DNA from: Mitsuaria sp. GD03876
GTDB taxonomy: Bacteria > Pseudomonadota > Gammaproteobacteria > Burkholderiales > Burkholderiaceae_C
Length of the DNA: 64,000 bases
NCBI RefSeq assembly: GCF_029840635.1
Contig: NZ_JAOCCU010000004.1
Span: 124,001-188,000, forward strand
Direction of reading: 5' to 3'
Numbering within the stretch: the stretch's first letter is position 1; each line of letters opens with the position of its first letter. Position numbers and translations under genes: made by a program. The notes under the pieces were generated by a model. The model saw only the letters and a list, made by a program, of their open reading frames with translations, was not told the DNA's origin and searched no databases. Of the stretch, positions 10,330 to 20,316 are shown one piece after another.

Positions 10330-10450
10330 GCCAGCCGTACGGCGATTCCCCCCATCCAGCGCAAGCGCCCGCCACCGAAGCGGGGGGAAGGTGCGAACGA
10401 CAAACGCCTCCTGTAGGCTGGTCGGTCTCGCAGAAGACAGGGAGTCCGCC

Positions 10451-12379
10451 GTGTTTGGCTGGTTCGAAAAACTCGTCGATCCGTTTCCGCAAAGCCCCGC
10501 GCCTCAGCCGCCGAAGGGCTTTTTCTCGTTCGTCTGGGCCGGCTCGCAAGGCATGCGCGGACTGGTGCTGGTGCTGGTGTTCCTCACCGCCGCGATCGGC
10601 GCGTTCGAGGCGCTGCTGTTCTCGATGCTGGGCTCGGTCGTGGACTGGCTCAGCCAGGTGCCGCCGGCGCAGTGGTGGTCCACGCAGCAGGACAAGCTGC
10701 TGCTGCTGGGCGGCATCCTGCTGGCCAGCCCGCTGCTGATCGCGCTGCAGGCGATGAGCAAGTACCAGGGCCTGTCCAGCAACTTCCCGATGCGGCTGCG
10801 CTGGAACTTCCACCGGCACCTGCTCGCGCAGAGCATGAGCTTCTACCAGGACGAGTTCGCCGGCCGCGTCTCGGCCAAGCTGATGCAGACGGCGCTGGCG
10901 GTGCGCGAATGCTGGCTGATCGTCACCGACATCCTGGTCTTCATCACGATCTACTTCGTGACGATGCTGGGCGTCGTCGGCAGCTTCGACGCGACGCTGC
11001 TGCTCCCGTTCCTGGGCTGGCTGGCCTGCTACGTCGTCGCGCTGACCTACTTCGTGCCGCGCCTGGGCAAGGCCGCCGCCGCGCAGGCCGACGCCCGCAG
11101 CCTGATGACCGGCCGCGTCACCGACGCGTACACCAACATCAGCACCGTCAAGCTGTTCTCGCACTCGAACCGGGAAGCGGGTTTCGCCCGCGGCGCGATG
11201 CAGGACTTCCTGGGCACCGCCTACCGCCAGATGCGGCTGATCAGCGCGTTCGAGATCGTCAACCACGCGCTGTCGATGGGCCTGATCGCCTCGACCGCCG
11301 GCATGACGCTGTGGCTGTGGACGCAGGGCCAGGTCGGCATCGGCGCGGTCGCCGCGGCCACCGCCATGGCGCTGCGCCTGAACGGCATCTCGCACTGGAT
11401 CATGTGGGAGATGGCCAGCCTGTTCGAGAACATCGGCACCGTGCAGGACGGCATCACCACGCTGTCGCGCCCGATCGCGATCCAGGACGCCACCGGCGCC
11501 CGCGCGCTGGACGTCACCCGCGGCGAGGTCCGCTTCGAGCACGTCGACTTCAGCTACGGCGGCCGCAAGACGGTGCTGCACGACCTGTCGCTGACGATCC
11601 GCCCGGGCGAGAAGATCGGCGTGGTGGGCCGCTCCGGCGCCGGCAAGTCGACGCTGGTCAACCTGCTGCTGCGCTTCTACGACATCGACAAGGGCCGCGT
11701 GCTGATCGACGGCCAGGACATCGCCACGGTGACGCAGGACAGCCTCAGACGGCAGGTCGGCATGGTCACGCAGGACACCTCGCTGCTGCACCGCTCGGTG
11801 CGCGACAACCTGATGTACGGCCGCCCCGACGCCACCGAGGACGAGATGCGCGCCGCCGCCCACCGCGCCGAGGCGCAGGACTTCATCGACGGCCTGAGCG
11901 ATCCCAAGGGCCGCCAGGGCTACGACGCCCACGTCGGCGAACGCGGCGTGAAGCTGTCCGGCGGCCAGCGCCAGCGGATCGCGATCGCCCGCGTGATGCT
12001 CAAGGACGCGCCGATCCTGCTGCTGGACGAGGCGACCAGCGCGCTGGACTCCGAGGTCGAGGCCGCGATCCAGCGCAGCCTGTACCGGCTGATGGAAGGC
12101 AAGACGGTGGTGGCGATCGCGCACCGGCTGTCGACGATCGCGGCGATGGACCGGCTGATCGTGATGGACCAGGGACGCATCGTCGAGCAGGGCGACCATG
12201 CCTCGCTGCTGGCCCAGGGCGGCCTGTACGCGAAGCTGTGGACGCACCAGAGCGGCGGTTTCCTGGTCGAGGAAGGCCTGGACGAGGCCCCGGACGGCGC
12301 GGCCGCGCAACAGCCCGGCGGCCGCGGCGCCCAGCGGGCCAGCGACGACCGTGACGTCGTGCACGACGAGGCGGACTGA
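10451..12379 (+). CDS. ABC exporter, fused permease and ATPase
   Basis: This 642-residue half-transporter has a six-helix membrane domain (about 35-320) and a nucleotide-binding domain (about 355-600). Walker A is GRSGAGKST, the signature LSGGQRQRIAIAR, Walker B ILLLDEATSALDSE and the H-loop AIAHRLST, all intact. The fold is of the MsbA/multidrug class and a homodimer is expected. GTG 10451 is chosen because GGAG lies 6 nt upstream (10441-10444) and FGWFEKLVDPFP is a natural N-terminus. A C-terminal extension rich in Gly/Ala/Asp ends the protein. The substrate cannot be inferred from its neighbours. Confidence 0.88.
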   Translation: MFGWFEKLVDPFPQSPAPQPPKGFFSFVWAGSQGMRGLVLVLVFLTAAIGAFEALLFSMLGSVVDWLSQVPPAQWWSTQQDKLLLLGGILLASPLLIALQAMSKYQGLSSNFPMRLRWNFHRHLLAQSMSFYQDEFAGRVSAKLMQTALAVRECWLIVTDILVFITIYFVTMLGVVGSFDATLLLPFLGWLACYVVALTYFVPRLGKAAAAQADARSLMTGRVTDAYTNISTVKLFSHSNREAGFARGAMQDFLGTAYRQMRLISAFEIVNHALSMGLIASTAGMTLWLWTQGQVGIGAVAAATAMALRLNGISHWIMWEMASLFENIGTVQDGITTLSRPIAIQDATGARALDVTRGEVRFEHVDFSYGGRKTVLHDLSLTIRPGEKIGVVGRSGAGKSTLVNLLLRFYDIDKGRVLIDGQDIATVTQDSLRRQVGMVTQDTSLLHRSVRDNLMYGRPDATEDEMRAAAHRAEAQDFIDGLSDPKGRQGYDAHVGERGVKLSGGQRQRIAIARVMLKDAPILLLDEATSALDSEVEAAIQRSLYRLMEGKTVVAIAHRLSTIAAMDRLIVMDQGRIVEQGDHASLLAQGGLYAKLWTHQSGGFLVEEGLDEAPDGAAAQQPGGRGAQRASDDRDVVHDEAD

Positions 12380-12686
12380 GCGCGCCGCTCCCCCCGGGAC
12401 CGGTGTCGCCGGAACAGGGGCGCCGGGGATGGCGCGTTCGGCTCAGCGGCGCTTCCGCGCGCCGCGTCACCTTCGCGAGCAGCATTGCCTGGCAACGATT
12501 TCCACGTAAGCCGGCGCTGACTTTCAGGAGCTGTGACGGACGCCGCACGCCACCCGTTCAAGGGGTTCGGCGGGGTTTCCGGTCGAGGGCTTGTATGAAA
12601 CACTGCGCTGGCAGATCGGACGGGAGCGCCGATCGGCTTGACCGTCCGCCCGAACCAGGGCCACGCGCATCACGAAAGCTGAGCAT
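12380..12686. other. 307-base gap upstream of the HPr-rel-A cassette
   Basis: No coding frame, repeat or terminator is recognisable. The 3' half probably holds the promoter of the downstream cassette, but I found no pair of hexamers at proper spacing and only a weak ribosome site before the ATG at 12687. Confidence 0.3.
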
Positions 12687-13361
12687 ATGGACAACAGCAG
12701 CGACACCACCCCGCAGTCTTCGGCCACCCCGACCCCCGTCGCGGGCTCCGTCGTCTCGCAGCGCCGCCGCCGTTTCATCCAGGCGGGCGTGGTGCCGGTC
12801 GGGCTGACGCTGGCCAGCCGTCCGGCGATGGCCTGGCACTGCAACACGACCTCGGCCTGGGGCTCGGCGATCCTGCGCAATGGCGGCGCCAGCGTGCAGG
12901 CCCGCGCCGACGCGGCGGTGATCAACAACACCGAGTGCTGGTACATCTCCAACTGGTCGGCCAACACCGGCCGGTCGCAGGTGCGCGGCGGCACCTCGCC
13001 CTGGACCTACGTGATCGCGCAGTGGTACTCCGGCAAGTCGCTGACCTACGCGCGCAACAACCTGACGGTGGCCAAGGTGTTCCCGGGCGGCCTGAAGAAC
13101 GTCAGCAGCACCGCCAACGTCTACAACCTGCTGAAGAACGACGCGGGCGGCTACGGCACGATGATGCTGGTGGCGCGCCTGAACACCCTGTTCGCCGGCA
13201 ACAGCGTCGCGCAGTGCGTGCTGTCGTCGACCGGCCAGGACATGCTGGTGCAGATGGCCACGCAAGGCCCGGGCACCTTCAAGCCGGCGAACTCGACCGG
13301 CTCGGCCTGGAGCCAGGCCGACTTCAAGAACTACCTCTACAGCAACTGGCTCGTGGCCTGA
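12687..13361 (+). CDS. Tat-exported small protein of the HPr-rel-A cassette
   Basis: This encodes 224 residues. After ~25 Ser/Thr/Pro-rich residues comes a twin-arginine signal (RRRRFIQAG, hydrophobic segment, cleavage-like SRPAMA near residue 48). The mature part is rich in Asn, Ser, Trp and Tyr, has three cysteines (in AWHCNTT, NTECWY and AQCVLS) and ends in NYLYSNWLVA. I recognise no enzyme motif. Its stop overlaps the start of a PqqD-like gene by one base, and a kinase and nucleotidyltransferase follow. It is therefore the best candidate for the protein modified by that cassette (inference). Tat export would fit a protein that must fold or be modified before leaving the cytoplasm. Confidence 0.75.
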   Translation: MDNSSDTTPQSSATPTPVAGSVVSQRRRRFIQAGVVPVGLTLASRPAMAWHCNTTSAWGSAILRNGGASVQARADAAVINNTECWYISNWSANTGRSQVRGGTSPWTYVIAQWYSGKSLTYARNNLTVAKVFPGGLKNVSSTANVYNLLKNDAGGYGTMMLVARLNTLFAGNSVAQCVLSSTGQDMLVQMATQGPGTFKPANSTGSAWSQADFKNYLYSNWLVA

Positions 13362-13678
13362 TGCCCGCGCCGGCGTGGCGTTGCGCGCAGCCGCTCGCTG
13401 ACGTGCTGCTCGCCTGGGAGGGCGAACAGCACGCGGTCTATTTCGACCCCGCCAGCGGGGACACCCACCTGATCGCCGCGCTCGGCGCGCAGCTGGCCGA
13501 ATGGCTGGCCGCCGAGCCGCTCGACCGCGACCAGTTGCTGCGACGCCTGGCGCGGGACGTCGACTGGGACGAGCCGCCCGCGCCCGACGCGCTGGCCGAG
13601 CTGCTGGACCTGCACCTGACCCGCCTGGCCGAGATCCACCTGCTGAGCGAGGCCCCGGCGGAGGAGTCCGGCGCTTGA
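13361..13678 (+). CDS. PqqD-like protein of the HPr-rel-A system
   Basis: This 105-residue protein has the PqqD/RRE-like layout: an N-terminal beta part (VYFDPASGDTHLIAALGAQLAEWL) and C-terminal helices (LAELLDLHLTRLAEIHLLSE). The family is annotated in genomes as 'HPr-rel-A system PqqD family peptide chaperone'. PqqD and related RRE domains bind precursor peptides and present them to modifying enzymes. ATG 13361 overlaps the previous stop (TGATG), and the gene's own end overlaps the following kinase start by four bases (TTGA), so the three are translationally coupled. Confidence 0.8.
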   Translation: MPAPAWRCAQPLADVLLAWEGEQHAVYFDPASGDTHLIAALGAQLAEWLAAEPLDRDQLLRRLARDVDWDEPPAPDALAELLDLHLTRLAEIHLLSEAPAEESGA

Positions 13679-14589
13679 AGCTCCAGGAGGTCGGTACCGA
13701 GGGGCTGCGGGCCCGGATGCGCGACGGCGGCGTGACGCTGCGGCTGTCGCCGTTCACCGTGCGCGTGCGCTCGGACATTCCCCACCTGGCCGCCGACGTC
13801 GCGGCGATGTACCGCGACTTCGAGCTCGCCACCGACGAGGCCTTCGTCGACTTCCACGTCGCCGTGCTGCGCAGCCCGCACTGGCTGAGCCGGCTGCAGG
13901 GGCGCGCGGAATTCTGGTTCGACGGCCAGCGCTCGTTCACGCCGCTGCCCGCGGCGCAGGCGCTGGCGATGCTCGAGTGGGGCATCAACTGGTGCATCGC
14001 CGCGCACGCGCATCAATTCCTGCTGATCCACGCCGCGGTGCTGGAGCGCGACGGCCGCGCGCTGCTGATGCCGGCGCCGCCGGGGTCGGGCAAGAGCACG
14101 CTGTGCGCCGCGCTGGCGCATCGCGGCTGGCGGCTGCTGTCGGACGAGCTCGGTCTGCTGGACCTGCGCACCGGCCTGGTCCACGGCATGGCGCGGCCGA
14201 TCAACCTGAAGAACGCGTCGATCCCGCTGATCCGGTCCTTCGCACCGGAGGCCGTCTTCAGCGCGTCGATGCCCAATACCTCGAAGGGCACGGTGGCGCT
14301 GGTGCGCGCGCCGCAGGACGCGATCGACGCGCGCCTGGCACCAGCCCGGCCAGCCTGGGTCGTGCTGCCGGCCTGGCGCGCCGACGCGCCGGCCCAACTG
14401 CTGCCGATCGAGCGCGCCCGCGCCTTCATGGACCTGGCCGAGCAATCGTTCAACTACGACGTCCACGGCCAGGCCGGCTTCCAGGCGCTGGGCCGGCTCG
14501 TGGGCGCCTGCGACTGCTTCCGCTTCGAGTACAGCCGGCTGGACGAGGCGCTGGCGCATTTCGACCGCCTGTCGGAGACCGCGCCATGA
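13675..14589 (+). CDS. HprK-related kinase A
   Basis: This encodes 304 residues. The Walker A P-loop APPGSGKST lies near residue 140 and is followed by GWRLLSDELGLLDL, where HPr kinase has its catalytic acidic pair; then comes GMARPINLKNASIPLI. This fits the HprK-like kinases found without the HPr/PTS system. TTG 13675 is chosen as start because a strong GGAGGAG lies 8 nt upstream (13660-13666) and gives the usual family length. Related HprK-like kinases in lasso-peptide clusters phosphorylate a serine of the precursor peptide, so the upstream Tat protein is a candidate substrate (inference). Confidence 0.85.
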   Translation: MKLQEVGTEGLRARMRDGGVTLRLSPFTVRVRSDIPHLAADVAAMYRDFELATDEAFVDFHVAVLRSPHWLSRLQGRAEFWFDGQRSFTPLPAAQALAMLEWGINWCIAAHAHQFLLIHAAVLERDGRALLMPAPPGSGKSTLCAALAHRGWRLLSDELGLLDLRTGLVHGMARPINLKNASIPLIRSFAPEAVFSASMPNTSKGTVALVRAPQDAIDARLAPARPAWVVLPAWRADAPAQLLPIERARAFMDLAEQSFNYDVHGQAGFQALGRLVGACDCFRFEYSRLDEALAHFDRLSETAP

Positions 14590-15719
14590 GCGCCGACCGC
14601 CGCCGGCCGCTGCTGGTGCGGGTGCTGCTGCAGCCCGCCGTCGCCGTCGGGCTGAGCCTGACGGAATGGGACCTGCTGCTGCGCCAGGCGCGGCGCTCGA
14701 ACCTGGCCGGCAAGCTGGCCGAGCAGATGGCCCAGGGCGGCTGGCTCGACACGCTGCCCGAGCCGGTGCGGCCGCACCTGCGCTCGGCGCTGCTGCTGTC
14801 GCGCCGCCAGGTGCAGATGCTGCGGCGCGAGGTCGACCTGCTGCGCCAGACACTGGCCGAGCTGCCGGGCCCGCTGATCCTGCTCAAGGGCGCGGCCTAC
14901 GCGCTGGGCGGCCACGCGCCGGCGCCGGGCCGGATGTTCAGCGACATCGACCTGCTGATCCCGCCCGAGCAGCTGCCGCGCTGCGAGACGACGCTGCTGG
15001 TGCACGGCTGGGATTTCGACGACGGCCTGGACGCCTACGACCAGCGCTACTACCGCGAGTGGATGCACGAGCTGCCGCCGCTGCACCACAAGCGCCGCGG
15101 CACTTCGCTGGACGTGCACCACACGCTGCTGCCGCCGACGGCGCGCACGCCGCTGGACGCGCGCGCGCTGTTCGACGCCCCGCGACCGTTGCCCGACCTG
15201 CCCGGCGTGTTCGTGCTGCCGCCGGAGGACATGCTGCTGCACAGCGCCGCGCACCTGTTCCACGAGGGCGAGTTGCCCAATGGCCTGCGCGACCTGTTCG
15301 ACCTGGACGCGCTGCTGCGCGAGTTCGGCGCGCTCGACGGCTTCTGGCCGCGGCTGACCGCGCGCGCGCGGCGCATCGGCCTGGCCCGGCCGTTGTGGCT
15401 GGCGCTGCGCTACACGCGGATGCTGCTGGACACGCCGTATCCGGACGAACTGCCGGCGGCGCTCGGTCCGCCGCCCGGGCCGGTGGCGCTGCGGCTGCTG
15501 GACGCCTGCTACCGGCGCGCGCTGCGCCCGGCGCACGACAGCTGCCGGCTGCCGGGACACGACCTGGCCGAGGGCGCGCTCTACGTGCGCTCGCACTGGC
15601 TGCGGATGCCCTGGGGCCTGCTCGCGCGGCACCTGGCGCGCAAGGCCTGGGGCCGGATGACGGCGATGCCGGAAGCTCCCAAGGTCGACGTGCCGGGCGC
15701 GGCCCGCGGCGACGGCTGA
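14586..15719 (+). CDS. Nucleotidyltransferase of the HPr-rel-A cassette
   Basis: This encodes 377 residues of the 'uncharacterised nucleotidyltransferase' type. A helical N-terminus (with two amphipathic stretches around 60-95) leads to LLKGAAYALGG and the catalytic-type FSDIDLLIPP (DxD, near residue 120). A third acidic residue is probably in TSLDVHHTLL. The C-terminal half is helical. ATG 14586 overlaps the kinase stop (ATGA). The same kinase/NTase pairing occurs in some lasso-peptide clusters. Whether it transfers nucleotides to the exported protein or acts on a small molecule is unknown. Confidence 0.8.
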   Translation: MSADRRRPLLVRVLLQPAVAVGLSLTEWDLLLRQARRSNLAGKLAEQMAQGGWLDTLPEPVRPHLRSALLLSRRQVQMLRREVDLLRQTLAELPGPLILLKGAAYALGGHAPAPGRMFSDIDLLIPPEQLPRCETTLLVHGWDFDDGLDAYDQRYYREWMHELPPLHHKRRGTSLDVHHTLLPPTARTPLDARALFDAPRPLPDLPGVFVLPPEDMLLHSAAHLFHEGELPNGLRDLFDLDALLREFGALDGFWPRLTARARRIGLARPLWLALRYTRMLLDTPYPDELPAALGPPPGPVALRLLDACYRRALRPAHDSCRLPGHDLAEGALYVRSHWLRMPWGLLARHLARKAWGRMTAMPEAPKVDVPGAARGDG

Positions 15720-15782: not shown

Positions 15783-16400
15783 ATGAATCGACCCAAGCCT
15801 TTCTCCATGATCCGCGAGTTCCATCTGGCGGACTGGTTCACCCTGGGCAACGCCTTCTGCGGGGTGGGCGCGCTGTTCTCGGTGATGACCTACCTGCAGA
15901 CCGGCCTGACGCTTCACCTGTACTACGCCTGCGCGCTGATCCCGGCCGCGCTGGTCTTCGACGTGCTGGACGGCCGCATCGCGCGCTGGCGCCAGAAGAG
16001 CTCGGCGATGGGCCGCGAGCTGGACTCGCTGGCGGACGTGATCTCGTTCGGCGTCGCGCCGGCGGTGATCGCCTACGGCTGCGGCATGCAGGGCCTGTGG
16101 GACCGCATCGTGCTCGGCTTCTTCGTCGCCTGCGGCGTGTCGCGCCTGGCCCGCTACAACATCACCGCCGAGACCCTGTCCGGCGGCGGCGACAAGGTCG
16201 CCTACTTCGAGGGCACGCCGATCCCGACCTCGCTGCTGCTGGTGATCGTGCTGTGGATCGCCGCCTGGCAAGGCGCGACCGGCGAGGCCCTGTGGTTCGG
16301 CTCCGTCAAGCTCGGCGGCTTCACGCTGCATCCGCTGGTGCTGCTGTTCGCGATCTCGGGGTCGCTGATGATCAGCCGGATCCGCATTCCCAAGCTCTGA
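15783..16400 (+). CDS. pssA: CDP-alcohol phosphatidyltransferase (phosphatidylserine synthase)
   Basis: This 205-residue membrane protein carries the CDP-alcohol phosphotransferase motif DG(x)2AR(x)8G(x)3D(x)3D, read as DGRIAR, then MGRELDSLAD, near residues 60-83. It has about six hydrophobic segments. The opening FHLADWFTLGNAFCG and the later FGVAPAVIAYG fit CDP-diacylglycerol-serine O-phosphatidyltransferase, which makes phosphatidylserine at the inner membrane. Other CDP-alcohol substrates cannot be excluded. A -10-like box sits 8 nt upstream of the ATG. It converges with the S41 protease gene, leaving only 18 bases between them. Confidence 0.85.
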   Translation: MNRPKPFSMIREFHLADWFTLGNAFCGVGALFSVMTYLQTGLTLHLYYACALIPAALVFDVLDGRIARWRQKSSAMGRELDSLADVISFGVAPAVIAYGCGMQGLWDRIVLGFFVACGVSRLARYNITAETLSGGGDKVAYFEGTPIPTSLLLVIVLWIAAWQGATGEALWFGSVKLGGFTLHPLVLLFAISGSLMISRIRIPKL

Positions 16401-16418: not shown

Positions 16419-18446
16419 TCAGCGAGGCCCGGCCAGGAACATGTTGCCCTCCAGCGGATGGCGCCGCCCGCGCGAGGACCCCGGGCCGCTGCCTCGCATG
16501 ACGCGGTCGGCGCTCGAGGCCGTCGCCTGGCCCGCCTGCTGCACCGGGCACCGGCTGTCGATCCGGTAGCCCAGCGCCGCGGACAGCAGACGCTCCCGGC
16601 TGTCGCCCAGGTCGTGCGCGAGGTCGTCTTCGACCCGGCAGCCCGGCACGCCGGCCACGCCCTGGCCGCCGGGCTCGAAACCATCCGCGTAGTCCGCGAA
16701 GCCCCGGTCGTTGGCGAACATCGAGTCGACGGCGAAGTAGTGGTAGCCGCAGTTGTCCTTGCCGGTGAAACCGAACGGCTTGCCGCAGGTGGTGTCGCCG
16801 ATGAGCACGACCTCCACGCCGATGCCGCGCAGCGTATTGATGAGCGCCTCGCTGGCGGAGCAGGTGTCCTGCTGCGACAGGGCGAACACGCGCCGCAGGT
16901 CCAGCGTCGGCAGCGGCCGGATCGAGCTGCACTGGCCGTCGACCAGGTGGCAGGACGTCGCCATGAACGGCAAGCCGCTCGCGGTGGCCGATGCGGGATC
17001 GTTGGTGAGCAGCTTCGCGAAGGCCTTGCCGGCGGTGGCCGTCGGACCCGCGACCATGTAGGCCAGCTGGTTGGCCAGGTAGACCAGCCCGCCGCCGTTG
17101 AAACGCAGGTCGACGACCAGGTCGCGGATCTTCCGCTCGCGAAAGGTCGTCACCGCCTCGATCAAGGCGGGCTCCGCCGGCGCGATGTGGGCGTTGAAGA
17201 GCAGATACCCCACCGAGGCGCCATCCTCGCCGGTCAACACCTGGTGAAGGGGAACCGGCTTGCGGGTGATCTCCTCGCTGGTCACCGCCACCTGCCGGGG
17301 GACCCCTTGGGTCGAGGTCAGCGTGTAGGACAAGGCCTGCCCCGCCGTCGACGGGGACAGCAGTTCGTCGAGGACGTCCTCGTCGAGCTCGTCGAGGGCC
17401 GTGCCGGCGACGGCGGCCAGGCGGTCGCCGCGCTTCACGCCGGCCCGGTCCGCCGGAGCACCGGGCTCCACGAAGTCGACGCGGATGTCCCGTGGTGGCC
17501 GGTCCGAGCGAACGGCCCAGCGGATGCCGGCGCCCAGGTCACCCTGGCCGCGATCGAAGGCCTCCACCGACTTGGACGTCGCCATGAAGCTGTAGGCGTC
17601 GCGGGCCTTGCCGCTGGCGGTGCGCGCCGGCGTGCGCAACGCCGTGAAGTAGGCCTTCAGGGCGGTGCGCACGGGGCCATCGCTGTGCTTGGCCGCCCCG
17701 GCGTCGACGTCAGGCACCTCGTTCCGCCAGAGATAGACCTCGTCGACACGGGAACGGATCCACTGCTTCTCGGTCGTCAGGCTGCCGGTCCGCTGCGAGG
17801 CCTGTGCCTCGACATTGGCGGGGCTGCATTGCCCGGCGTACGCGCCGCTGGGCATCAGCGCCGGACGTCCGCCGGACGCGCCGGCACCGCTGCCCGTACC
17901 GGCGCCTCCGCCGCCGCCATCGCGTCCATCCCTGCCGTCGCGGCCATCCTTGCCGTTGACGCCATCCTTGCCATCGGCGCCGTCTCTGCCGTCAGCACCG
18001 TGTCTGCCGTCATTGCCGTCGACACCGTCCTTGCCATCCGTGCCGTCGCGTCCATCGCCACCATCGCGACCGTCACGACCGTCTCCCCCATCCCGACCGT
18101 CCTTGCCGTTGGCGCCATCCCGGCCGTTCGCACCGTCCTTGCCGTTCGGCCCGTCACGGCCGTCCGCGCCGTCCCTGCCGTTCGATCCGTTCGTGCCATC
18201 CCGGCCGTTCATGCCGTCCCGGCCGTCGTCGCCGTCCTGCCCATCCCTTCCTTCACGGCCATCCCGGCCGTCCTTGCCATCCTTGCCATCCTTGCCATCC
18301 TTGCCATCCTTGCCGTCCCGCCCGGCGATCACCGTCGGCTCCGCGGTGCCGGTATCGTGGCAGGCCTGCAGCGCCATCGCGCCCATCGCGCACGCCGCGA
18401 CGATCGACAGCCGGCGCGCGCGGCGCCCCATCGAGAGTTCCCTCAT
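16419..18446 (-). CDS. S41 protease lipoprotein with collagen-like stalk
   Basis: This encodes 675 residues. The start at MRELSMGRR is supported by GGAAGGGA just upstream. A lipoprotein signal with lipobox LQAC (Cys near residue 29) leads directly into 45 consecutive Gly-X-Y triplets (nt 17919-18323; X mostly K/R, Y mostly D/N). After a Gly-rich hinge come an S41-type protease domain with a PDZ-like segment (VEPGAPADRAGVKRGDRL), VDLRFNGGG, the catalytic serine in CSASEALIN and the paired lysine in TCGKPFGF. It should be an outer-membrane-anchored, periplasmic or surface C-terminal-processing-type protease on a long rod. The gene after it upstream on the same strand encodes a paralogue lacking the collagen stalk. 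Confidence 0.87.
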   Translation of the reverse strand: MRELSMGRRARRLSIVAACAMGAMALQACHDTGTAEPTVIAGRDGKDGKDGKDGKDGKDGRDGREGRDGQDGDDGRDGMNGRDGTNGSNGRDGADGRDGPNGKDGANGRDGANGKDGRDGGDGRDGRDGGDGRDGTDGKDGVDGNDGRHGADGRDGADGKDGVNGKDGRDGRDGRDGGGGGAGTGSGAGASGGRPALMPSGAYAGQCSPANVEAQASQRTGSLTTEKQWIRSRVDEVYLWRNEVPDVDAGAAKHSDGPVRTALKAYFTALRTPARTASGKARDAYSFMATSKSVEAFDRGQGDLGAGIRWAVRSDRPPRDIRVDFVEPGAPADRAGVKRGDRLAAVAGTALDELDEDVLDELLSPSTAGQALSYTLTSTQGVPRQVAVTSEEITRKPVPLHQVLTGEDGASVGYLLFNAHIAPAEPALIEAVTTFRERKIRDLVVDLRFNGGGLVYLANQLAYMVAGPTATAGKAFAKLLTNDPASATASGLPFMATSCHLVDGQCSSIRPLPTLDLRRVFALSQQDTCSASEALINTLRGIGVEVVLIGDTTCGKPFGFTGKDNCGYHYFAVDSMFANDRGFADYADGFEPGGQGVAGVPGCRVEDDLAHDLGDSRERLLSAALGYRIDSRCPVQQAGQATASSADRVMRGSGPGSSRGRRHPLEGNMFLAGPR
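17919..18323 (-). repeat. Collagen-like Gly-X-Y repeat region
   Basis: This codes for 45 uninterrupted Gly-X-Y triplets, mainly GKD, GRD, GAN and GAD, with almost no proline. At the 5' end of the block a 9-bp DNA unit (CCATCCTTG on the plus strand) is repeated in tandem around 18270-18310, a likely site of slippage and length change in whole triplet pairs. Confidence 0.95.
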
Positions 18447-18555
18447 TCGATCCCTTCCGCCGGAGCCACCGGCCGCGATTGACAAGCGGCGGTGGTCCTT
18501 CGGCGATGCCGCCGGTTCATTCGTGCGACAAGGAGTCCGATGCGTCCGTGCAATG

Positions 18556-18621: not shown

Positions 18622-20316
18622 TCAGTGGCGTCCGCCGACGATCCGGTTGTTGCGCGCGGCCAGCTTGCGCATCTGCAGCGCCACCGCGTCCTCGCCGACC
18701 GCCCGCGCCGCCGTCGCCCGCGCCATGCCGCTGTCCGAGGCGCGCGCCGCCGGGCAGGTGCCGTTGGCGCGGTATTGCAGCGCCGCGGCCAGCATCGCCT
18801 CGGCGGTGTCGCCCAGCGGGTGCTCGAGGTCGTCCGCCACCTGGCAGCCCTTGATGCCGGTCGCGCCGGTGCCCGCGGGCACGAAGCCGTCCGCGTAGTC
18901 GCCGAAGCCCTTGTTGTTGGTGCCGACGAACTCGATCGGGAAGTAGCTGTTGCCGCAGTTGTCCTTGGCGGTGAAGCCGTACGGCTTGCCGCAGGTGGTG
19001 CCGCCGACCAGCACCACTTCCACGTCCACGCCGCGCAGGCCGTTGATCAGCGCCTCGCTGGCCGAGCAGGTGCCCGACTGCGCCAGCACGAACACGCGCT
19101 TGAGGTTGAGCGCCGGCAGCGGCTGGCGCGACGAGCAGTTGTCGCCCACCAGCAGGCAGGACGTGTCGTAGAACGGGGTCTTGGCGTCGTCGCTGTTGGT
19201 CTGGGCGGTGCGCTTGCTGTTGTAGCGCAGCTGCTCGAAGGTCTTGTTCGCCGTCGGGCCGCTGCCCGCGATCATGTAGGCCAGTTCGCTGGCGATGAAC
19301 AGGTAGCCGCCGCCGTTGTAGCGCAGGTCGACGACCAGGTCGCCGATGTTGGCCGCGCGGAAGGTCTGCATCGCGTTGATGAGCTGCTGCTCGGCCGGCA
19401 GGATGTGGTCGTTGAAAACCAGGTAGCCGACCGTGCCGCCGCCGGCGACCGACAGCACCTGGCTGGTCGGCACCGGCGTCTTGGTCACGTTGCCGGCCGC
19501 CATCGCGACGCCGCGCGACACGCCCGCGGTCGAGCTCAGCACGAAGCTGTGGCTCGATCCGCCGCTGCTCGGGTACAGCGCGGCGTTGAGCACGTTCACG
19601 CCGGCCGTGTCGCCGGCGTCGGCGGAGGTGCCGTCCACGCTCACCAGCGTGTCGCCGCGGCGCACGCCGGCCCGGTCGGCCACGCTGCCGGGCTCGACGA
19701 AGGCGACGCGGATGTTGCGCGGCGGCGTGGCCGACTTCATCGTCCACTCGATGCCGTAGCCGAGCTCCACGCCGCCCTGCGACAGCGCGTTCCACTCGCG
19801 GGTGCTGAGCATGAAGCTGAACTGGTCCTTGCGCTTGCCGCTGGCCGTCGTCTGCGGCGACAGCAAGGCCTCGAAGTAGTTGTTCAGCGCGGTGCCGACA
19901 TCGGTGCCGCTGTAGGGCGCGGCCGCGGCATCGACCGCGGGCACGTCCTCGCGCCACAGGTAGGCCTCGTCGAAGTAAGAACGGATGAAGTTCTTCTCGA
20001 TCGCCAGCGAGCCGGTGCGCGTGTTGACCGGCGCCTCCGGGTTGCCGGCCGCGCACTGGTTGGCGTAGGTCGAGCTGGGCTGCAGCGTCGTGTTGCCAGT
20101 GCCGCCGGTCCCGCCCGTGCCCCCGGTGCCGCCACCGATGACCGAGCCGCCGCCGCCCCCGTTGTTGCCGCCGCCGCCACCGACATTGCCGCCGCTGCCG
20201 CCCAGCACCGGCGTGCCGCTGTCGGCACCGCCGCCGCCGCAGCCGCTCAGCAGCACGGCCCCGATCGCGCCGGCCACGGCCAGGCGCGCCACCCGCAACA
20301 TCGCGGATCGATTCAT
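18622..20316 (-). CDS. S41 protease lipoprotein with Gly-rich linker
   Basis: This encodes 564 residues, a paralogue of the downstream collagen-stalk protease. A lipoprotein signal with lipobox LSGC is followed by ~60 residues of Gly runs with Ser/Asn/Thr. The rest aligns closely with its neighbour: NTRTGSLAIEKNFIRSYFDEAYLWREDVP, the PDZ-like VEPGSVADRAGVRRGDTL, VDLRYNGGG, catalytic serine in CSASEALIN and lysine in TCGKPYGF. Conserved paired cysteines (ANQCAAG, TSCLLVGDNCSS, KGCQV) suggest disulfides in the periplasm. Tandem duplication with exchange of the tether is the simplest explanation. The substrate is unknown. Confidence 0.87.
   Translation of the reverse strand: MNRSAMLRVARLAVAGAIGAVLLSGCGGGGADSGTPVLGGSGGNVGGGGGNNGGGGGSVIGGGTGGTGGTGGTGNTTLQPSSTYANQCAAGNPEAPVNTRTGSLAIEKNFIRSYFDEAYLWREDVPAVDAAAAPYSGTDVGTALNNYFEALLSPQTTASGKRKDQFSFMLSTREWNALSQGGVELGYGIEWTMKSATPPRNIRVAFVEPGSVADRAGVRRGDTLVSVDGTSADAGDTAGVNVLNAALYPSSGGSSHSFVLSSTAGVSRGVAMAAGNVTKTPVPTSQVLSVAGGGTVGYLVFNDHILPAEQQLINAMQTFRAANIGDLVVDLRYNGGGYLFIASELAYMIAGSGPTANKTFEQLRYNSKRTAQTNSDDAKTPFYDTSCLLVGDNCSSRQPLPALNLKRVFVLAQSGTCSASEALINGLRGVDVEVVLVGGTTCGKPYGFTAKDNCGNSYFPIEFVGTNNKGFGDYADGFVPAGTGATGIKGCQVADDLEHPLGDTAEAMLAAALQYRANGTCPAARASDSGMARATAARAVGEDAVALQMRKLAARNNRIVGGRH

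Follow-up and report, generated by a model that had tools for sequence, protein, structure and literature searches.

The four overlapping genes at positions 12687–15719 of the window (the whole 64,000-nucleotide stretch of DNA that was analysed) encode an enzyme set that has been named as a family and has no known function, and the question they raise is what these enzymes act on. We propose a concrete candidate substrate, the protein encoded by the first gene (hereafter protein A). A first-pass annotation had read the genes as an HPr-rel-A cassette with end-to-start overlaps and a nucleotidyltransferase as its fourth member, and this description was borne out. All four genes lie on the plus strand, and the junctions between protein A and the PqqD-like protein (TGATG, 13359–13363), the PqqD-like protein and the kinase (TTGA, 13675–13678), and the kinase and the nucleotidyltransferase (ATGA, 14586–14589) were read directly from the sequence, confirming that the genes form a real unit. 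The kinase scored 396.3 bits against TIGR04352 (cut-off 200), the PqqD-like protein, whose gene overlaps the kinase gene, scored 46.8 bits against TIGR04353 (cut-off 35), and the fourth protein scored 189.6 bits against PF14907 (NTP_transf_5; cut-off 31.2). The first two are members of the HPr-rel-A families by these scores.

Table 1 Positions of the genes and motifs of the unit within the window
Feature	Position	Strand	Evidence
Gene for protein A, probable substrate with export signal, 224 aa	12687..13361	+	Sequence; homologue adjoining kinase in 16/16 genus genomes
Signal region of protein A, residues 1–49 (R27-R28, P37, T41-L42, basic R45, A47-M-A49)	12687..12833	+	Sequence; leader profile
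C52-N-T-T-S56-A-W-G-S60 motif directly after the signal, candidate modification site	12840..12866	+	Column conservation
PqqD-like protein, 105 aa	13361..13678	+	TIGR04353 match
HprK-related kinase A, 304 aa, TTG start	13675..14589	+	TIGR04352 match; predicted fold
Kinase catalytic stretch H119 ... K140 ... D157-E158	14029..14148	+	Conserved among 133 kinases
Nucleotidyltransferase-fold protein (NTP_transf_5), 377 aa	14586..15719	+	PF14907 match
Transferase D120-x-D122	14943..14951	+	Conserved among 113 transferases

The structure model of the kinase (pLDDT 93.8) has the PEPCK/HprK fold, and the score against TIGR00679 was only 10.9 bits (cut-off 240), so that it is not an HPr kinase/phosphorylase proper. 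H119, K140, and D157 are present in 133/133 kinases; at the fourth position, 131 of these have Glu and the other 2 have Asp; compared with the lasso-type His-Lys-Asp-Asp set, three residues agree and the fourth is a conservative change. In the transferase, D120, D122, and D176 are kept in 113/113 sequences. Judged by sequence, the catalytic residues of both enzymes are intact. A toxin–antitoxin reading of the transferase was rejected, as AbiEii gave just 13.6 bits, below its cut-off. The PqqD-like protein was not found by profile in 18 of the 132 loci, some of these loci being truncated or divergent. Kinases of the HprK type have regulatory roles elsewhere, and the kinase might accordingly phosphorylate protein A (or the PqqD-like protein) solely to time export, leaving the mature protein unmodified outside the cell. 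The presence of PrsT and the PEP-CTERM promoter element with the cassette in many genomes of the order (see below) also speaks for such a switch. We nevertheless consider it very unlikely, because it leaves unexplained both the transferase, which is present in the fetched stretch of 113/135 loci (some flanks being short), and a natural fusion of kinase and transferase into a single protein in one relative (L133).

The pairing of protein A with the kinase was surveyed in 300 genomes of the order, 50 with a kinase above the cut-off and 250 others, using a profile built on the twin-arginine leader. At the strict level (E ≤ 1.1e-7), the profile matched 42/300 genomes, all among the 50 kinase genomes and none (0/250) among the others, and every one of the 42 matches adjoins the kinase on the same contig and strand; 36 lie upstream, 608–959 bases from the kinase match, and the other 6 lie downstream. 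In the remaining eight kinase genomes, the protein adjoining the kinase has a leader that matches more weakly or was recognised by hand. At a looser threshold (E ≤ 0.01), the profile matched 100/300 genomes. Within the genus, each of 16 genomes, including that of the window, has a homologue of protein A beside the kinase, and a leader protein adjoins the cassette on the same strand in 123/132 cassette loci. Only one genome (G055) gave a protein A match with no listed kinase match; it was weak (2.4e-4), lay outside the leader-profile genomes, and was read as a generic Tat signal. The co-occurrence check proposed in the first-pass annotation thus came out in favour of pairing (42/42). Protein A is probably the partner of the cassette enzymes and their substrate; its export signal and its almost constant position beside the enzyme genes suggest that it is modified before leaving the cell.

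The signal of protein A contains R27-R28-R29-F30, a hydrophobic h-region, a basic c-region residue (R45), and an A-x-A sequence (A47-M-A49), and from these features the protein is predicted to be a twin-arginine export substrate. Among 51 aligned sequences, RR is present in all, and the R45 column is R, K, or H in 40. The structure model has pLDDT below 50 over residues 1–82. No NCBIfam or Pfam family matched protein A at E ≤ 1; none of 33 substrate partners scanned had an NCBIfam match at E ≤ 0.01, and a Pfam scan of the partners gave a single weak Tat-signal match. Protein A was earlier described as a substrate with three cysteines (C52, C84, and C177). Its role as partner is upheld by the co-occurrence, but the trio of cysteines is not shared generally: Cys occupies the C52 column in 49/51 sequences and the C84 column in 40/51, and only C52 is nearly general among substrates of the window type.

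Proteins exported by Tat often fold or receive their load while still in the cytoplasm, which would suit an alternative in which the enzymes build a phosphate- or nucleotide-containing cofactor and attach it to protein A before Tat export, as for redox enzymes, making protein A a redox or binding protein. The conserved C52 is consistent with this, as are known chaperones that stay on a Tat signal until the cofactor has been inserted (PMC3316669). We think it quite improbable, since neither a cofactor-binding fold nor a cofactor-binding family was found and the mature regions are too variable for one cofactor site.

The mature regions differ between substrates, yet serine motifs, which were absent from the first-pass annotation, are kept near one end. 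Among the 51 aligned sequences, the S56 column is Ser in 51 and the S60 column in 50; in a 17-row alignment, C52 and S60 are invariant and S56 is conserved in at least 90%. The motif follows the signal in the window type and is a C-terminal S-C-W-x-S-F in the other type. With patterns that were chosen after the sequences had been seen, the window-type motif was found in 57/60 proteins against 1.2 in shuffles, and the other-type motif in 59/66 proteins against a mean of 7.9 and a maximum of 13 in internal windows. Because the two types bear the motif at opposite ends, a single modification site is not established. A lasso-like C-terminal Ser was also considered for the window protein and rejected, since this protein ends in N-W-L-V-A; in the two clusters of its kind, the C-terminal pattern (0/38 against 3.3 in shuffles; 5/19 against 2.4) was at or below chance.

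These motifs bear on a further alternative, in which the product of the kinase and transferase is a small molecule or a donor of sugar for exopolysaccharide. Protein A would then escape cytoplasmic phosphorylation itself and act in the periplasm as a partner or acceptor, with the PqqD-like protein serving only as its chaperone. Exopolysaccharide genes lie in the flanks of many loci, and over its whole length the kinase model is nearer to PEPCK, a small-molecule enzyme, than to HprK. By contrast, each kinase has one leader protein, the substrate type tracks the kinase tree (4 changes against a shuffled mean of 38), and the serine motifs are conserved in otherwise dissimilar proteins, all of which make this alternative unlikely.

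The genomic setting, which the first-pass annotation did not contain, is the PEP-CTERM/exosortase A system, to which genomic and promoter associations tie the cassette, mainly within the order. XrtA is encoded in 47/50 cassette genomes of the order compared with 26/250 others; the window genome encodes it on a contig other than the window's (G000:C87; 346.8 bits, cut-off 208). PrsT was found in the fetched flanks of 14/48 order loci, in all 14 above the model cut-off. The published PEP-CTERM promoter element consists of a sigma-54 site and an upstream TTTACA (PMC1569441), and this two-part element precedes the substrate gene in 31/117 loci, with 0.2 expected. Within the order, it was found in 25/46 loci (0.10 in shuffles); among other stretches, 3/1954 contained it. 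It was found in 0/13 loci of Roseateles, the window's genus, the window included; positions 12001–12760 of the window contain no TTTACA and no sigma-54 site with three or fewer mismatches. The association weakens beyond the order: the element was found in 2/43 phylum loci, XrtA was above the cut-off in just 19/55 cassette genomes, and of 14 of these genomes tested with a family-wide exosortase model, 2 gave a match. The last two counts rule out an exosortase as a universal partner of the cassette.

The reading that we favour, with moderate confidence, is that the PqqD-like protein holds protein A, a Tat precursor, while the kinase and the transferase modify one of its serines, and that Tat export follows; we infer the biochemical steps (modification, binding, and export) from genes, motifs, pairing, and associations. 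The unit would then be devoted to modifying and exporting a protein, each such cassette having a single substrate. Protein A would be synthesised with its twin-arginine signal and bound by the PqqD-like protein, most likely at the unusually conserved leader, which would keep it in the cytoplasm. The kinase would phosphorylate a serine of the exposed terminal motif, S56 or S60 in the window protein and a serine of the C-terminal S-C-W-x-S-F in the other type; the nucleotidyltransferase-fold enzyme would attach either a sugar or a nucleotide to this phosphoserine, and modified protein A would leave via Tat. Sugar transfer is as well founded as nucleotidylation, because PsmN, a lasso transferase, adds hexoses (PMC9266682). 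In many Burkholderiales, protein A may be produced within the PEP-CTERM (PrsK/PrsR, sigma-54) regulon, and if so its most likely role is in the exopolysaccharide matrix to which exosortase A loci give rise. A bolder version, which we offer tentatively and regard as doubtful, is that the cassettes define a class of Tat-exported phosphoglycoproteins in the PEP-CTERM/exosortase A matrix programme: the PqqD-like chaperone would recognise the signal peptide as its leader, the kinase would make the terminal phosphoserine, the transferase would join a sugar to the phosphate, and the exported protein would be an exopolysaccharide anchor or primer. In either form, the proposal gives the cassette a biological setting and narrows the candidate acceptors to a few serines, points that mass spectrometry can test. 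If the proposal is true, a Tat signal doubles as a modification leader, and the PEP-CTERM/exosortase A matrix system gains, in environmental bacteria, a protein-modification branch that had been missing.

Compared with known systems, the window kinase and PqqD-like protein belong to the HPr-rel-A system of NCBIfam (TIGR04352 and TIGR04353) by curated cut-off, and the substrate partner has no NCBIfam model; a search of the available literature by the system's names found no paper. The cassette shares genomes, often neighbourhoods, and in 25/46 order loci the promoter element with the PEP-CTERM/exosortase A system with PrsK/PrsR/PrsT (PMC1569441), but protein A has no NCBIfam match to the PEP-CTERM sorting domain, the element was not seen in Roseateles, and some cassette genomes have no detected exosortase. 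TorD and DmsD are dedicated cytoplasmic proteins that bind Tat precursor signals, with specificity residing in the hydrophobic part, and are believed to retain the immature precursor (PMC3316669); the PqqD-like protein is proposed to hold protein A similarly, although it is not TorD-like and no redox cofactor is known here. Bufferins and other MNIO-modified peptides are likewise modified precursors bearing an export signal, and the authors speculate that the signal stays hidden by a partner protein for as long as modification is under way; the enzymes and chemistry described there differ, and the signal is Sec rather than Tat (PMC12452194). In lasso peptide tailoring, PadeK and PsmK phosphorylate the C-terminal Ser of the precursor, and PsmN then adds hexoses (PMC9266682). 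The two systems differ in that the unit has neither lasso cyclase nor B2 protease, as first annotated (no such model matched its four proteins or, at E ≤ 1e-5, the five neighbouring proteins of the window that were scanned), that the last acidic kinase residue here is Glu, and that the substrate is a 224-residue protein with a twin-arginine signal and no terminal Ser rather than a short peptide. What the cassette has in common with lasso tailoring (PadeK/ThcoK/SyanK; PsmK with PsmN) is a His-Lys-Asp-acidic kinase paired with a nucleotidyltransferase homologue, and an adjacently encoded ribosomal substrate with a conserved serine near a terminus (PMC9266682). If our proposal is true, lasso-type kinase and transferase chemistry reaches from short peptides to exported proteins.

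The four genes of the unit lie on one strand and are joined by end-to-start overlaps, and GGAGGAG can be read in the sequence immediately 5' of the TTG start of the kinase gene. The enzyme families of this HPr-rel-A cassette (PqqD-like protein, HprK-related kinase A, and NTP_transf_5 transferase) are already named, and protein A, the product of the first gene, matched no listed Pfam or NCBIfam family. The kinase was the only match to itself in its own genome, which is Roseateles/Mitsuaria-like, the closest named kinases having 91% identity to it; assignment as an HPr kinase proper was rejected by NCBIfam comparison. Genes similar to the MsbA-like ABC exporter upstream of the unit also lie upstream at two other loci (L039 and L040), and one of the two adjoining S41-type peptidases carries a long collagen-like G-x-x repeat region.

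Features of the four-gene unit and its surroundings in the window
Feature	Position	Strand	Remark
ABC exporter, MsbA-like	10391-12379	+	upstream of the unit; below the family cut-offs shown
Gene A	12687-13361	+	overlaps the next gene
PqqD-like gene	13361-13678	+	over the curated cut-off of its NCBIfam HPr-rel-A model
Kinase gene	13675-14589	+	over the curated cut-off of its NCBIfam HPr-rel-A model
Transferase gene	14586-15719	+	over the Pfam NTP_transf_5 cut-off
pssA	15783-16400	+	immediately downstream of the unit; barely above its cut-off
S41-type peptidase	16419-18485	-	
S41-type peptidase	18622-20316	-	

The first-pass annotation had counted gene A as part of the unit, and the genus bears this out: 16 of 16 genomes, including its own, carry the kinase, and all 16 have a protein A homologue approximately 1 kb upstream. 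Across the order Burkholderiales, a protein A query matched only 5 of 300 genomes because the mature part diverges fast, and three of the four non-self matches adjoin a kinase; we therefore collected loci via the cassettes and inspected the surroundings of the kinase. The collection comprised 27 loci from a scan of named genomes, 50 of the 300 order genomes (kinase over cut-off), 54 of 55 phylum genomes from outside the order, and one divergent congener; 149 loci less 14 genus duplicates and 3 with a kinase below cut-off gave 132, in which species may recur across collections. A leader protein adjoined the cassette on the same strand at 123 of the 132 loci, among them 10 where it scored low against the profile (6 to 18 bits) and 5 where it was chosen manually; it lay on the opposite strand at one and was absent at eight, two of which are cut by contig ends. 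This protein, of roughly 130-290 residues, precedes the PqqD-like gene in nearly every locus inspected, and in six order genomes it lies downstream of the kinase, beyond the transferase gene. The shared leader consists of R-R, a hydrophobic stretch often containing P-x(2-3)-T-L/V-x-S, and then A-x-A or similar. At two loci with kinases below the TIGR04352 cut-off (L185 and L183), tiny leader-like open frames lie upstream, three of them at L185, which suggests a related system with leader-only peptides.

The co-occurrence with the kinase that the first reading had proposed checking was confirmed genome-wide by searching those 300 order genomes with a profile of 42 twin-arginine leaders (A2) and scoring the best 24 candidates in each. 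At E ≤ 1.1e-7, A2 matched 42 genomes, all among the 50 with the kinase, and every match was on the contig and strand of the kinase; the next match was at 6.4e-6. The remaining eight kinase genomes have a weaker or hand-recognised leader protein adjoining the kinase. At E ≤ 0.01, 100 of the 300 genomes matched, mostly in long open frames, and we took these weaker matches for generic Tat signals. The sensitivity of A2 is not independent because the profile was partly built from the same genomes; the lack of strong matches in the other 250 is an independent result.

All-against-all comparison of 126 distinct substrate proteins gave 22 clusters, which we assigned by eye to two kinds. The window kind comprises 60 proteins, 19 of them in a Roseateles-type cluster, and 57 of the 60 carry C-x(2-4)-S-x3-S right after the signal (1.2 in shuffles), compared with 3 of 66 of the other kind; the patterns of both kinds were picked after inspection and relatives are counted repeatedly, so the figures for either kind indicate strength and are not a clean test. 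In an alignment of 51 window-type proteins, the first motif serine is present in all 51 and the second in 50 (S56 and S60 in protein A), and R, K or H occupies the basic c-region column of the signal (R45) in 40. In the structure model of protein A, residues 1-82, including the serine motif, are disordered (pLDDT <50) and are followed by a helical domain; the model had no match in the PDB. Proteins of the other kind, 66 in 17 clusters, tend to be shorter and usually end in a motif such as S-C-W-T-S-F, T-C-F-A-S-L or A-F-T-S-L, and a fixed C-terminal pattern occurs in 59 of the 66 and in 13 of the 17 clusters (internal windows: mean 7.9, maximum 13). The kinase phylogeny almost splits the two kinds, with 4 changes over 117 rows against a shuffled mean of 38. 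Among 33 substrates sampled across both kinds, no NCBIfam model matched, and Pfam gave one Tat-signal model, weakly and in a single member.

In the order, where the cassette is spread over 17 families, exosortase A (XrtA) exceeded its cut-off in 47 of the 50 genomes with the cassette but in 26 of the other 250 (p 2.7e-32 by Fisher's test, kinship ignored). Both were on one contig in 19 of the 47 and ≤58 kb apart in 15. Among loci with at least 8 kb fetched, PrsT lay in the flank at 14 of 48 order loci, all 14 above the model cut-off (L048 has a truncated PrsT, 311.7 bits against 312.2), and PrsT or an exopolysaccharide gene of the XrtA/PEP-CTERM system was found by similarity at 31 of 111 from all collections. 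Genes confirmed in example flanks are those of amidotransferase TIGR03108, glycosyltransferases TIGR03087/03088, FemAB TIGR03019, and deacetylase TIGR03006. Such neighbours were absent from 11 named Roseateles loci and from the 12-kb stretch examined in the window. Outside the order, XrtA exceeded its cut-off in only 19 of 55 cassette genomes, and 12 of 14 tested had no exosortase family match; exopolysaccharide genes were nonetheless present at several loci without such a match. The cassette may be tied not to the sortase but to exopolysaccharide and its regulon. At six loci (L097, L107, L108, L109, L110, and L161), an asparagine-synthase-like gene similar to XrtA-system amidotransferases precedes the leader gene in the same orientation, and near another cassette an ATPase (L187:942-2126, minus strand) resembles the methylation-associated defence protein MAD3, below cut-off.

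A two-part element 5' of proteobacterial PEP-CTERM genes was reported by Haft and colleagues, who connected it to PrsK/PrsR/PrsT (PMC1569441): a 17-base motif with TTTACA at its end is followed, after about 63 bases, by a sigma-54 site. Allowing ≤2 mismatches within ≤350 bases before the leader, 53 of 117 loci had a sigma-54 site, against 4.6 in dinucleotide shuffles and 6.6 per 117 expected from other stretches (5.6% of 2601); the reverse strand had none. TTTACA, the most frequent hexamer in the region preceding these sites, lay 24-100 bases before 31 of the 53 (shuffles, 1.3). Jointly, the two parts occurred at 31 of 117 loci, whereas shuffles gave 0.10 and other stretches 3 of 1954 (0.18 per 117). 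By group, the joint counts at loci were 25 of 46 in the order, 4 of 15 other named, 2 of 43 in the phylum, and 0 of 13 in Roseateles. Neither part precedes gene A in the window. The scan is independent support for the PEP-CTERM setting, and since the joint element stands at many order loci, the substrate gene in many Burkholderiales looks, from its promoter sequence, like a PEP-CTERM regulon member.

The kinase model (pLDDT 93.8) has a PEPCK/HprK fold, with a better full-length fit to PEPCK chains than to HprK. His119, Lys140, and Asp157 are conserved in 133 of 133 kinases and Glu158 in 131; this set closely resembles the His-Lys-Asp-Asp residues that lasso kinases require (PMC9266682). Transferase residues K101, R116, D120, D122, and D176 are all present in 113 of 113, the gene being missing from the fetched stretch in 22 of 135 loci. 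At L133:1444-3561, in a source genome with 8% contamination, the two enzymes form one natural 706-residue fusion, which suggests that they share one target.

In the open literature, outside which most subscription papers lie, we found no mention of HPr-rel-A, TIGR04352, TIGR04353, HprK-rel-A or HprK-related kinase A, and no account of the substrate family or its motifs, of the kinase-transferase fusion, or of the PEP-CTERM association. By analogy with known systems, the PqqD-like protein would hold the leader of the substrate, the kinase would phosphorylate a terminal serine, the transferase would elaborate the phosphorylated serine, and Tat would export the product; this is the probable mode of action. 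Lasso clusters have the same pairing of a kinase with a nucleotidyltransferase: PadeK and PsmK phosphorylate the C-terminal serine of the lasso precursor, to which PsmN attaches one or two hexoses (PMC9266682). The PqqD-like protein can be modelled on two precedents, the chaperones that hold Tat signals (PMC3316669) and the partner proteins thought to mask the Sec signals of MNIO peptides (PMC12452194).
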